Positions 10,288 through 25,562 of a stretch of 64,000 bases of DNA are shown one piece after another (the stretch's first letter is position 1; each line of letters starts with the position of its first letter). Made by a program: the position numbers and the translations under genes. Under the pieces are notes generated by a model. It saw nothing but the letters and a program-made list of their open reading frames with translations, did no database searches and was not told the origin of the DNA. The DNA is taken from assembly GCA_019240405.1 (NCBI GenBank), contig JAFAYL010000056.1, forward strand, positions 1 to 64,000, given 5' to 3'. This DNA is from Acidobacteriaceae bacterium. Lineage in GTDB: Bacteria > Acidobacteriota > Terriglobia > Bryobacterales > Bryobacteraceae.

Positions 10288-11070
10288 ATGGTCATTGCCA
10301 GTTGGAATGTAAATTCGATTCGCGCGCGACTGGAACATGTGAGAAGGTGGCTCGCTGCGCACAATCCGGATATTTTGCTATTGCAGGAACTCAAAGCGGC
10401 GGAGTTTCCCGCAGAGTTATTTGGCCAGCTAGGATATCGAAGCGCGGCGGTTACGCAAAAGTCCTACAACGGCGTGGCCATCGTGTCTCGTTCCCCAATT
10501 GAGATCGTTTCGACAACGCTGATTGGTGACGAGGCGGATAGTCATGCGCGCTTCGTGGAAACTTTGATCAGCGGCATTCGCGTTGTCAATATCTACGCGC
10601 CGAATGGGAACCCGCCTGCCAGCGATAAGTTTCTTTACAAGCTGGCGTGGATGGATCGGCTGCTCCAACAACTGCAGATTTGGCTAAAAAACGAGATCCC
10701 GACGTTGGTGGGGGGCGACTTCAATGTCATTCCAGAGGACATCGATTGCCACAAACCTTCCTCCTGGATGCACGACGCGCTGTTTCAACCTGAGCCGCGG
10801 GCTCGCTATCGTGCGTTTCTCGGGCTAGGCTATACGGACGCGTTTCGTTCTTTGCATCCGGGCGAGACCGGCCAATTCACGTTTTGGGATTACTTCCGAA
10901 AAGCATTTGAGTACAACCGTGGCATTCGGATCGACCACCTTTTACTCTCCCCGAGATTAGCGCAGCGATTGGAGAGTTGCGAGATCGATAAGGCACCCCG
11001 AGCCATGGAGAAACCGTCGGACCACACGCCGATCGTTGCTCGATTGCGCCCCGCCATTGGGAACTCGTAA
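10288..11070 (+). CDS. xthA: Exodeoxyribonuclease III / AP endonuclease
   Basis: This enzyme cleaves DNA at abasic sites and trims 3' ends in base-excision repair. The 260-residue protein has all EEP-superfamily motifs: Asn8 in SWNVNSIRAR, metal ligand Glu34 in LLQELK, Tyr103 in NIYAPNG, Asp144/Asn146 in GGDFNV, and His246 in SDHTPI. Length matches bacterial ExoIII. It is divergent from the GH39 gene with a 114-nt gap that must hold both promoters, although none is clear. No strong Shine-Dalgarno precedes the ATG, but the N-terminus starts exactly where the family does. Confidence 0.95.
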   Translation: MVIASWNVNSIRARLEHVRRWLAAHNPDILLLQELKAAEFPAELFGQLGYRSAAVTQKSYNGVAIVSRSPIEIVSTTLIGDEADSHARFVETLISGIRVVNIYAPNGNPPASDKFLYKLAWMDRLLQQLQIWLKNEIPTLVGGDFNVIPEDIDCHKPSSWMHDALFQPEPRARYRAFLGLGYTDAFRSLHPGETGQFTFWDYFRKAFEYNRGIRIDHLLLSPRLAQRLESCEIDKAPRAMEKPSDHTPIVARLRPAIGNS

Positions 11071-11120
11071 TCTCTCGACACTCATTTTGAATATCAGTGC
11101 CTACGCCCTGTCATGCGAGT

Positions 11121-12218
11121 ATGTCTGAGCGCCTGCCGTTACCAGCCCTCTTGTCGCACGCATTGGTGGCGTTTACGATCGAATTCGACAACGAGTTCGA
11201 ACATCAGACACCCCATCGAACAACAAACCATGACCAGACACCAGGATCAACTTCCGTCCCATGGCTCGTCTCCATGGCGATGTGGATCAAGTTTATGCGA
11301 TTCGTGCCGGATGACGGGACGGCGATTCGGGACTTGCTGCGGCGCGCTGCCCTAAAGAGCAAAGAAGCGAAAGTCTGGTTGACCCGGATGAGCAAATGGT
11401 GGGGCTACGTTGCCGTCGACCGAAGTGCATCAGATCATCCGCTGGATTGGATCGTCCGGCCCACGGCTGGCGGCAAGAAGGCTTTACGGGTATGGCGGCC
11501 TCTAACCGGCATCATTGAAGAGCGTTGGGGGGAGCGGTTTGGGAACGATACAGTCGCCGAGCTTCGCCGATCATTGCAATTGCTGGCCCGACAACTGAAC
11601 CGGAACCTTCCAGATTATCTTCCGATTCTGGGGTACGAAATGATGAGCGAGGGGCCCGAATCCGACCCGCCCAGCCCTAATGCAACTGCTTTGCCGGGTG
11701 AATTCACGCTGCCCATACTCATGTCGAAGGTTCTTTTGGCCTTCGCCCTTGAGTTCGAGCGAGAGTCCGGGCAGTCGCTCGCAATCGCCGCCAACGTTTT
11801 GCGACTGGCAGGCGACGAAGGTACCCGCGTTCGCGACCTGCCTCTCTTATCGGGTGTATCCAAAGAAGCCATTGCAATGGCGGTAAAACGCCTGCAGGAG
11901 CGCGGCTTCGCTGTCGTCGAGCCGAGCCAACAGAACCCCCGGGCAAAGGTACTCATTCTCACGGCTAAGGGAAAGGACGCGCGCAACACATACCGCCGGC
12001 TGGTCTGGACAGTCGAGCAGCGTTGGGAAGCCAAATTCGGCTCGCATGTTATCAATCTGAGGCAGTCGCTAGAGCGCCTCGCCGGCGAATCGGGGTCCCT
12101 ATTCTACAGTGGACTAGAGCCTTATCCCGACGGCTGGAGAGCGTCGCTACGCAGGCCAGAGACGCTCCCTCACTATCCGATGGTTTTGCACCGCGGTGGT
12201 TTCCCGGACGGCAGTTGA
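11121..12218 (+). CDS. Protein with two tandem MarR-like winged-helix domains
   Basis: The roughly 365-residue protein is an internal duplication. Segments LPALLSHALVAFTIEFDNEF and LPILMSKVLLAFALEFERES align, as do DDGTAIRDLLRRAALKSKEA and DEGTRVRDLPLLSGVSKEAI, then EERWGERFG and EQRWEAKFG. The second unit has a standard MarR-like winged helix-turn-helix (LSGVSKEAIAMAVKRLQERGFAV, wing with VLILTAKGK). In the first unit the recognition helix is diverged (ALKSKEAKVWLTRMSKWWG). One chain could thus mimic a MarR dimer. A GTG at 11097 would add eight residues; ATG at 11121 is preferred because the duplication boundary begins just after it. It follows xthA by about 50 nt on the same strand. The ligand and target are unknown. 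Confidence 0.75.
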   Translation: MSERLPLPALLSHALVAFTIEFDNEFEHQTPHRTTNHDQTPGSTSVPWLVSMAMWIKFMRFVPDDGTAIRDLLRRAALKSKEAKVWLTRMSKWWGYVAVDRSASDHPLDWIVRPTAGGKKALRVWRPLTGIIEERWGERFGNDTVAELRRSLQLLARQLNRNLPDYLPILGYEMMSEGPESDPPSPNATALPGEFTLPILMSKVLLAFALEFERESGQSLAIAANVLRLAGDEGTRVRDLPLLSGVSKEAIAMAVKRLQERGFAVVEPSQQNPRAKVLILTAKGKDARNTYRRLVWTVEQRWEAKFGSHVINLRQSLERLAGESGSLFYSGLEPYPDGWRASLRRPETLPHYPMVLHRGGFPDGS

Positions 12219-12529
12219 GGGGATGATTCGGCGGACAGATCCTTGATCACGTGTCAAATGGAAGTAAAGCTATTTCGCGCTCAACTTCGCGGAAAACGGT
12301 GCGTTCCGTCGATGTGACGTGTTCCGGAGCGGTTGTCGGCTATCCGGCCTGCCCTCGAGAGATCTCCAGTAAGCGCACCTCTCTCACATCTCGCTCGCCG
12401 AACGCCCCGACCGCATTCACAAAACTCCTAAAAGTTTCTTCTCCTTGAAAACAAACGCCCATCGAATCTCAGGTCGTTCTGTTTCGCCGGGCCTGAATGC
12501 TAGATTCTGCTCCGAAGGAGCAACTATCT
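12219..12529. other. Intergenic region without a supported gene
   Basis: About 310 nt lie between the winged-helix gene and the next gene. A short plus-strand frame opens at GTG 12251 but has no ribosome site and atypical composition. On the minus strand a 30-odd-codon stretch (around 12350-12445, reading VNAVGAFGERDVREVRLLE) looks protein-like but ends in a stop and lacks a clear start; it could be a gene remnant. No promoter or terminator is convincing except the Shine-Dalgarno at 12515-12520 for the following gene. Confidence 0.4.
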
Positions 12530-13147
12530 ATGTCTACGCCAGCTCAGATCACCGCGAATCGCGCCAATGCGCAACATTCCTCGGGTCCCAAAACGCCCGA
12601 AGGGAAAGCCATTTCCTCGCGCAACAATTTTCAGTGGGGTTTCTGCGGCCGCTTCACCGTCCTTCCCTGCGAATCCCAACAAGAATTCGACGAACTCAAG
12701 GCTGCGCTCCGCAACGAGCACCAGCCCGCCACTCCGACCGAAACCATCTTGGTCGACAAAATGGCCGAGCATCACTGGCTCACCCGCCGCGCTCTCCGAT
12801 TGCAGAATGCCGCTTTGGCCGAAGCCGATGACAAAAGCTTCGCGCTGTTCCTTCGCTATCAGACCACGAATGACCGCGCCTTCCACCGCTGCCTCAATGA
12901 CCTCGTAAAGCTCAGAGCCGAAAAGCGCAAACAGGAAATTGGCTTCGAATCGCAGCGTCGCAAGAACGACGAGCTTGCCCTCAGACAAGCCATCGAACAA
13001 CGCAAGCAGGACACCCACCGATGGGATATTTTGCTCGCGCAGGCCAAAGTCGACAACCAGGTTCTACAAAACATCCACTTGGAAACTCCCGAACATCGCA
13101 TCACGGTCACGCCCCAGCGCATCATCGCCGTAGAAAACGCTGCCTAA
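12530..13147 (+). CDS. Uncharacterised protein with GPKTPEGK N-terminal motif (lineage-specific family)
   Basis: The 205-residue soluble protein starts MSTPAQITANRANAQHSSGP followed by KTPEGKAISSRNN. This N-terminal block, (A)NRxNAxxSxGPKTPEGKxxSxxN, is one I associate with a multi-copy family in Acidobacteria and relatives; its function is not known to me. The rest is helical and charged with coiled-coil potential at about 125-175 (LRAEKRKQEIGFESQRRKND). ATG 12530 is chosen because AAGGAG (12515-12520) sits 9 nt upstream; an in-frame ATG at 12497 has no such site. The stop is followed 11 nt later by hairpin repeat copy 2. Confidence 0.7.
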   Translation: MSTPAQITANRANAQHSSGPKTPEGKAISSRNNFQWGFCGRFTVLPCESQQEFDELKAALRNEHQPATPTETILVDKMAEHHWLTRRALRLQNAALAEADDKSFALFLRYQTTNDRAFHRCLNDLVKLRAEKRKQEIGFESQRRKNDELALRQAIEQRKQDTHRWDILLAQAKVDNQVLQNIHLETPEHRITVTPQRIIAVENAA

Positions 13148-23816: not shown

Positions 23817-25562
23817 ATGCAACCTGCGCTCGTCTCGAATGAAGAGTTAGCGGTTGAACTCGGAGCAGAGGCCAAGTCGGAAATAACCCGAGACGGTATC
23901 CCGACATTTTGGTTGGCTCCGAACGAGATTCACGAAGTTGTGCGCAGGCTTCGAGAATCTGTTCCGCGACCGTTCAAAGTGTTCTACGACCTGACTGCGA
24001 TCGATGAGCGGGCCCGGCGGAATAGAAACGGTCGCTCGGCGGGCGATTTTACAGTCGTTTATCACTTGTTTTCCTACGAGCGCAATGATTACGTGCGGCT
24101 CAAAGTTCCGCTCGACATAAAACACCCCTCAGTGCCGTCGATCGTTGACATTTTTCCCGCTGCCAATTGGTACGAACGTGAAGTGTGGGACATGTTCGGA
24201 ATCGCTTTCGAAGGGCATCCTCATTTGACGCGTATTCTTATGCCGCGGTCCTGGCAAGGACATCCTTTGCGGAAAGATCATCCGGCGCGTGCGACAGAAA
24301 TGGGTCCGTTCGTCTTGCCTGACGAAAAGTTGGACGCCGAACAAGAAGCGTTGCGCTTCCGGCCCGAGGAATGGGGCATGGCGCGAGGGCGGGAGGATAC
24401 CGATTTTTTGTTTTTGAATGTTGGCCCTCAGCATCCCGGAACTCACGGCGTCCTGAGGATCGTGTTGGAGCTGGATGGCGAAGAGATTGTCAACGCTGTT
24501 CCCGACATCGGATTTCACCATCGGGGCGCGGAGAAAATGGGCGAGCGCCAGACCTGGCATACTTACATTCCGTACACCGATCGGATCGATTATCTCGGCG
24601 GTGTCATGAACAATCTCGCCTATCTCACGTCTTTCGAAAAGCTCGCGGGAATTACAGTGCCGCCGCGAGGCCAGATGATTCGCGTGATGACGGCGGAGTT
24701 GTTTCGTATCATCAGCCACCTGGTTTGGTACGGCACATTCGCCCAGGATGTTGGCCAGATGTCGCCGGTCTTTTACACGTTCAACGATCGTGAAAAAGCG
24801 TTCTCGATCATTGAAGCTGTTTGCGGAGCGCGCATGCATCCCAACTGGTTCCGGATTGGCGGTGTAGCGCAAGATCTGCCGCGCGGTTGGGACGCAATGT
24901 TTCGAGATTTCGTGAACTATCTTCCGGCTCGCTTGGATGAATACGACCGCACCATCATGCAGAACCTCCTATTCCAGGCGCGCACCAAGGGAGTGGGCGG
25001 GTGCACCATTGATGAAGCCATGGAGTGGAGTATGACCGGACCGAATCTCCGCGCCTGCGGATTCGAATGGGATGTTCGCAAAAAGCAGCCTTATGCGTGT
25101 TACGACCAACTCGAATTCGACATACCAACGGGCAAGACCGGCGATTGCTACGACCGCGCGATCGTGCACGTCGAAGAAATGCGGCAAAGCTTGCGGATCA
25201 TCCGGCAATGCGTAGACCAGATGCCCGGAGGACCGTGCAACGCCGAGCATCCGCTGACGACGCCTCCGCCGAAAGCGCGGACGATGCACGATATTGAGAC
25301 GCTGATCGATCATTTCTTGGGTGTGAGCTGGGGGCCTGTGGTGCCGGCGGGCGAAGCCTTCGCGGCAATTGAAGCGACTAAAGGGAACAATGGTTACTAC
25401 CTGGTCAGCGATGGTGGAAACGGGTCCTATCGAACACGCATCCGCACGCCATCATTTGCACACATGCAGATGTTGCCGCTGCTGGTCCGCGGTCTGATGA
25501 TCCCGGATCTACTGGCGATTCTCGGAAGTCTAGATTTCGTGCTGGCGGATATTGATCGGTGA
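23817..25562 (+). CDS. nuoCD: Fused NADH-quinone oxidoreductase subunits C and D
   Basis: One 581-residue chain combines NuoC (about 1-180; [42 protein letters not shown]) and NuoD (about 195-581; [44 protein letters not shown]). NuoD forms the quinone cavity and is related to [NiFe]-hydrogenase large subunits, without metal cysteines. The fusion is as in E. coli rather than the split nuoC/nuoD of many other bacteria. The linker at about 165-195 is charged and shows no leftover stop codon. It starts 6 nt after nuoB. Confidence 0.97.

Follow-up and report, generated by a model that had tools for sequence, protein, structure and literature searches.

Classical MarR regulators carry a single winged-helix domain per chain and form homodimers of ~145-residue chains, whose identical reading heads bind palindromic DNA in a ligand-responsive manner. 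Two MarR-like winged-helix domains within one chain are known from Sar proteins. According to an excerpt of a 2023 paper (PMC10715151), SarS is no dimer; it is instead a larger protein composed of two homologous halves. A passage of a second source (PMC9781258) groups SarS, SarU, and SarY as a two-domain subfamily; excerpts of two further papers (PMC4379015, PMC12733317) added nothing on two-domain Sar proteins. Among the literature listed, titles and abstract openings mentioned no tandem, fused, or pseudo-dimeric MarR family of the kind analyzed here.

The window (the whole stretch of 64,000 nucleotides that was analyzed) encodes on the plus strand, at positions 11121–12218 (ATG at 11121, stop at 12218), a tandem MarR-fold protein of 365 amino acids (P0001). 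As in SarS (SarH1), SarU, and SarY, two homologous MarR-like winged-helix halves share one chain, but the protein is longer than SarS (365 versus 250 residues), ends in a conserved C-terminal tail, and has acidobacterial relatives. An earlier note on this DNA, made from the sequence, knew of no described example of such a chain; SarS (1P4X), grouped with SarU and SarY, has this two-domain build. As SarS already provides a one-chain pair of winged helices, the surprise is limited. What appears to be new, in that we found none described, is a patchy acidobacterial family derived from one duplication, whose clades differ as to which half is the less MarR-like one.

In structure comparisons of the predicted model, Foldseek ranked SarS from S. 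aureus eighth, with 308 columns across both halves (rmsd 11.1), and VIA-align gave a Z-score of 9.8 with 227 aligned over residues 2–303 (rmsd 9.1). Both domains thus match SarS, with an rmsd of 9.1–11.1 for their mutual arrangement, and the TM-score of the superposition was no better than those of single-domain MarRs. 1P4X was absent from the 48 sequences that the family profile matched at E ≤ 10, and also from the 25 found in another search at E ≤ 1. The duplication was presumably independent of the one in SarS; a remote kinship between the two is possible.

Internal duplication and predicted fold

The ORF at 11121–12218, for which an in-frame GTG at 11097 is a possible alternative start, was the sole match in the 4.45 Mb source assembly (E 0.001), and it contains an internal duplication. 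Local alignment (BLOSUM62) of residues 1–178 with residues 179–365 yielded a score of 141, which was reached by none of 5000 shuffles of half 2 (mean 29.9, SD 4.9, maximum 72), and profiles of half 1 and half 2 from 19 family members matched each other with a probability of 99.87% (E 1.8e-31). The halves also scored higher against each other than against the best of 24 single-domain MarRs (maxima 77 and 124), of which 23 came from the genomes of relatives and one from a Streptomyces plasmid. The earlier note had placed a one-chain pair of winged-helix domains at this ORF, and had named a missing duplication signal or a prediction of two unrelated folds as results that would speak against it. 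The pair is borne out by the alignment and profile match of the halves, which constitute a strong duplication signal, and by the predicted folds described below. The claim that the halves align over their whole length went too far: the alignment comprises residues 7–156 and 197–321 only, half 1 has 22 additional residues after helix 1 relative to half 2, and nothing in half 1 corresponds to the final 44 residues of the protein. The note had also pointed to dimer-like end helices. The two stretches, EERWGERFG (residues 133–141) and EQRWEAKFG (residues 299–307), do lie at the end of helix 5 in each half, but the motif is that of an ordinary MarR helix 5/6, and the single-domain MarR L009 has a similar text (IEREWSAELG).

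AlphaFold2, run with five sequences in the alignment, predicted the same fold twice rather than two unrelated ones (pTM 0.74, mean pLDDT 72.4), each half showing its structural elements in the MarR order. Across the five models the mean pLDDT ranged from 72.4 down to 42.4, and confidence was low for residues 36–51, 165–193, 335–344, and 351–365. Half 1 (residues 1–168, positions 11121–11624, plus strand), which aligns to half 2, was modeled as a winged helix with helices at residues 7–29, 48–59, 69–76, and 80–93, strands at 97–100 and 111–114, and helices at 116–140 and 142–159; the model places its Trp-rich recognition helix, SKEAKVWLTRMSKW, at residues 80–93 (positions 11358–11399, plus strand). 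Half 2 (residues 197–321, positions 11709–12083, plus strand) was predicted as a canonical MarR-like winged helix with helices at residues 197–216, 220–227, 237–244, and 248–260, strands at 264–268 and 276–280, and helices at 282–306 and 308–321, its modeled recognition helix occupying residues 248–260 (positions 11862–11900, plus strand).

The predicted fold of half 2 (residues 192–322) superimposed on E. coli MarR (3vb2_A) with a VIA-align Z-score of 11.3 (rmsd 2.5, 130 aligned). When the 19-member profile was compared with the PDB, positions 51–159 matched 7krh (E 2.1e-7) and positions 198–318 matched TcaR (3kp2; E 2.9e-6). The MarR winged-helix fold, i.e., helices 1–4, a wing hairpin, and helices 5–6, is thus predicted for both halves, for half 1 by the order of its elements and the 7krh match, and each half has the fold of single-domain MarR/EmrR proteins (E. 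coli MarR 3vb2, MarR 3bpx, TcaR 3kp2, Variovorax 7krh). Because two homologous domains reside in each chain, the protein represents a tandem variant of the MarR fold and not a classical MarR. A sequence search of the PDB to E 10 with half 1 of the window protein alone found no MarR, and a profile of five half-1 rows reached a PDB MarR at E 0.035. Half 1 modeled alone attained a mean pLDDT of 49.8, whereas in the full-chain model 13 of its first 16 ten-residue blocks had pLDDT values of 74–93. Such an improvement would be expected if half 1 needs its partner, but it may only reflect the additional context available to the program.

The Pfam model MarR_2 matched the window protein at residues 230–271 only (E 0.00088), where it scored 19.8 bits; the curated cut-off is 27, which the relatives L065 (32.1) and L067 (27.9) passed, and at E 0.01 it matched 8 of the 19 family members.

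Family, subfamilies, and tree of the halves

Among 237 genomes of the window's family, 24 contained a match at 1e-12, and in 16 of the 237 one open frame spanned both halves. A phylum-wide draw of 396 genomes, with at most five candidates scored per genome, gave 24 matches at 1e-6; besides the window and G466, these were 22 weak matches that covered the profile only in part, and 19 of the 22 lay in frames of 141–192 amino acids. A contig scan, within reach of close relatives only, returned five loci, all under acidobacterial record names (Bryobacteraceae, Acidobacterium, Acidobacteria, Acidobacteriaceae, and Candidatus Sulfopaludibacter). L020, the locus in the Bryobacteraceae record, encodes a protein identical in sequence to that of G051 from the window's family, so that the window probably derives from Bryobacteraceae; its host is probably a soil bacterium.

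The alignment used for the comparisons below contains 19 sequences, 12 from subfamily A, including the window protein, and seven from subfamily B; members with incomplete or broken frames (L004, L008, L015, L024, L074, L076, L078–L080, and L084) were left out. Subfamily A proteins share 47–56% overall identity with the window protein and end in HRGGFPDGS or HRGGYPDGS, and subfamily B proteins end in NRGFGP. In a distant tandem group from the same phylum, subfamily C (L012, L016, and L025), the halves are separated by a stretch reading PHYPASYG or PHYPANYG and by an SITG motif; identity is low (30% for L016, 28% for L012). Like the window protein, subfamily C has two MarR-like halves, with the PHYP motif after half 1; it differs in the shorter reading part of half 2 and in the absence of the PMVLHRGGFPDGS tail from L016 and L025, the frame of L012 being broken.

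A maximum-likelihood tree was calculated from 67 rows, namely 43 tandem halves (without the second half of L012) and the 24 single MarRs. The first and second halves of each subfamily (A1, A2, B1, B2, C1, and C2) and the single MarRs each formed one group. A1 grouped with B1 (support 98/86) and A2 with B2 (90/84, below the tool's star), and the tandem halves stood together against the 24 single MarRs (98/97), which are no fair MarR sample, as they include flagged long branches and were mostly fetched via the family's own profile. Given these groupings of the halves, the duplication most likely arose within the family and predates the split of subfamilies A and B.

For subfamily C, whose succession of a canonical half, a PHYP linker, and a degenerate half initially suggested it, a circular permutation with swapped order of the halves was also considered. 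It would be favored by the first half of C, which, too, scores better with half 2 of subfamily A. However, the second half of C likewise scores better with A half 2 than with half 1, the first half of C groups with half 1 in the tree (88/80, although its branch is long, at 2.3), and the linker after half 1 is where the PHYP stretch aligns. A permutation is thus conceivable but not supported.

Unequal divergence of the halves and a putative mechanism

The two halves have diverged unequally, and the direction differs between the subfamilies. When both halves were compared with a profile built from the 24 single MarRs, half 2 scored higher than half 1 in all 12 subfamily A members, with margins below 6 bits in L072, L073, and L022. 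In subfamily B, half 1 was ahead in six of seven members, four times by more than 5 bits, while the halves of L005 and L068 differed by ~1 bit; in the exception, L077, half 2 led by 12 bits. Because most rows of the single-MarR profile were fetched by half-2 matches, it leans to half 2, and the subfamily B result is the more telling one. Pfam MarR_2, where it was seen, agreed with this pattern: its best stretch was located in half 2 in the window protein, L065 (two stretches), and L067, and in half 1 in L005 and L070 (weak, E 0.03). The first half is therefore not always the diverged one among the orthologues, a point that the earlier note had proposed to check.

For the window protein itself, the earlier note held that half 2 keeps a MarR-like helix-turn-helix, which agrees with the confinement of the Pfam match to this half and with its score of 63.0 bits against the single-MarR profile, compared with 30.8 bits for half 1. 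The companion claim that half 1 has lost typical residues is right insofar as half 1 scores lower against the MarR profile, but its recognition helix is retained at full length, starts with SKEA at residue 80, and is rich in Trp (KVWLTRMSKWWGY). The recognition helix of half 2 likewise begins with SKEA, at residue 247, and SKEA or SKEG marks its start in 10 of the 12 subfamily A rows, the exceptions being L072 and L069. The recognition helix of half 1 comprises 14 residues in four of the 12 subfamily A members, including the window protein, eight residues in the other eight, where six residues are missing from this region, and 13 residues in all seven subfamily B members. That of half 2 has 14 residues throughout subfamily A (12/12) and 11 throughout subfamily B (7/7). 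In the tree, from which the helix columns had not been deliberately left out, the four subfamily A members that have the long helix group together (100/97). Most simply, the helix would have been shortened once in half 1, within subfamily A, and once in half 2, within subfamily B.

We consider it probable that the window protein is a covalent MarR-type pseudo-dimer regulator derived from one duplication, with half 2 as the main reader, half 1 as a fixed partner, and a non-palindromic site. The pair would have been made by a single internal gene duplication in the ancestor of the acidobacterial family. The halves may pack via their end helices like two MarR monomers, and by analogy with SarS the chain most likely folds on itself like a MarR dimer and binds DNA as a monomer. 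In subfamily A, the helix-turn-helix of half 2 most likely makes the main base contacts, whereas half 1, with a dimer-type helix 1 that would be strongly constrained and a recognition helix that would be free to vary, perhaps touches DNA weakly or reads a different half-site. The mean entropy of half 1 in subfamily A was 0.57 for helix 1 and 1.61 for the recognition region; because helix 1 is constrained while the recognition helix varies, half 1 would mainly serve as a fixed partner. Since the two reading heads are unequal, the preferred site should be non-palindromic. The earlier note had raised two possibilities, an asymmetric operator and a half used for sensing only; neither a shared operator nor a widely conserved neighbor that could bear on them emerged from the comparisons described below.

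The variable recognition region of half 1, six residues short in most of subfamily A, and its strongly conserved helix 1 would also suit a dimer of two tandem chains with four winged helices, in which half 1 dimerizes or scaffolds off the DNA and each half 2 reads one part of a palindrome. This arrangement seems unlikely, as the single chain was predicted at a pTM of 0.74 (in modeling confined to single chains) and SarS, the nearest described build, was reported not to be a dimer in the excerpt of PMC10715151. Moreover, no direct or inverted repeat of at least eight bases occurs at 10980–11160 upstream of the ORF, a finding that is relevant here only if the gene is autoregulated; a sigma-70-like site was not found either.

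Returning to the covalent pseudo-dimer, a more far-reaching version is conceivable but doubtful: the two clades may have given up the reading helix of opposite halves, that of half 1 in part of subfamily A and that of half 2 in subfamily B, with the tail as a built-in lid or docking signal, and would thus represent natural hetero-pseudo-dimers. If so, regulation would rest on one true reading head and a fixed partner, and the family would provide a natural test of how much of the specificity of a MarR dimer one head carries. A duplication that frees one head to change could show how operators become asymmetric or how a half evolves for sensing only, and within this family losses in both directions can be compared.

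C-terminal tail, upstream regions, and genomic context

The C-terminal tail (residues 348–365, positions 12162–12215, plus strand; pLDDT <50 for residues 351–365) has the sequence LPHYPMVLHRGGFPDGS and is nearly invariant in the 12 subfamily A members (compare the C-termini of L020–L023, L065–L067, and L073). Its mean entropy of 0.34 was the lowest of 12 regions, with 11 of 18 columns invariant, followed by helix 1 of half 1. In subfamily B, the tail also had the lowest entropy (0.23, next region 0.46). The last 16 residues of the window protein are identical in L020, L065, L066, L067, and L073, and at an overall identity of 54–56% this points to selection. A search of the 237 family genomes with the last 35 residues gave 17 places in 16 genomes. 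These were tandem genes and their fragments or broken copies, together with L113, where only the tail was found, and two weak matches, L115 and L114, the latter a remnant that retains some of half 1. None of the 17 places showed a clear tail on another kind of protein, L113 and L115 being known only by the match itself. As guesses, the tail could fold back on the pseudo-dimer as an intramolecular lid or serve as a docking peptide.

Another function of the tail would follow if half 1 and the tail formed a pocket for a ligand or metal and half 2 were the sole DNA-binding domain. In 12/12 subfamily A members, the HRGG tail is accompanied by a PHRTT-like segment that follows helix 1 of half 1, and 7/7 subfamily B members lack both; across the 19 rows, half 1 has an invariant E21 and D23 and a nearly invariant E25. 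We regard such a sensor as rather improbable, because the co-occurrence amounts to one contrast between two clades and hence may reflect a single event, and because the tail was predicted with a pLDDT <50 and the window protein lacks Cys. The lack of Cys excludes Cys-based redox sensing for this protein.

For the neighborhood analysis, we clustered 222 ORFs of at least 100 amino acids from 24 stretches, among them the window and several that were truncated where their contig ended. Cluster 0, which holds the tandem proteins, occurred in 22 stretches, and none of the neighbor clusters occurred in more than three of the 24; L021 and L023 had two neighbors in common. In 17 upstream stretches no 8-mer was common to more than three, as in shuffled sequences (maximum 3 to 5 in 30 rounds). 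An imperfect inverted repeat, defined by an ad hoc rule without chance control, was present in seven of the 17 and absent from that of the window. This operator comparison is weak, as at least eight of the 17 upstream start points (L086, L087, and L089–L094) lie inside a coding frame. No relative was found on viral contigs or in phages. In searches of plasmids, two queries matched only MarR-annotated records over at most 26% of the query, one inspected record being a single-domain protein, and two other queries had no match. PADLOC returned one weak match, PDC-M21A (E 0.0056), which we read as general winged-helix likeness.

The tandem genes are spread over two frames in L108 and L024, which may represent identical or sister loci, and in L111 and L012, owing to decay or assembly error. 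With no widely conserved neighbor and with such broken copies, the gene looks stand-alone and may be dispensable in some lineages. Its patchy occurrence and the frame-broken copies could even suggest a decaying or non-functional gene; for the window copy we deem this highly improbable, as its frame is open throughout and five other subfamily A members share its last 16 residues unchanged.

The stop codon of the gene preceding the ORF on the same strand (10288–11070), which from its sequence features we take to be exonuclease-III-like, lies 50 bases before it. Downstream, the ORF at 12497–13147 with the motif ANRANAQHSSGPKTPEGK presumably belongs to a common uncharacterized acidobacterial protein type, and a single frame of 581 amino acids at 23817–25562 reads, judging from its sequence features, like fused NADH dehydrogenase subunits C and D, which we assume it to encode.
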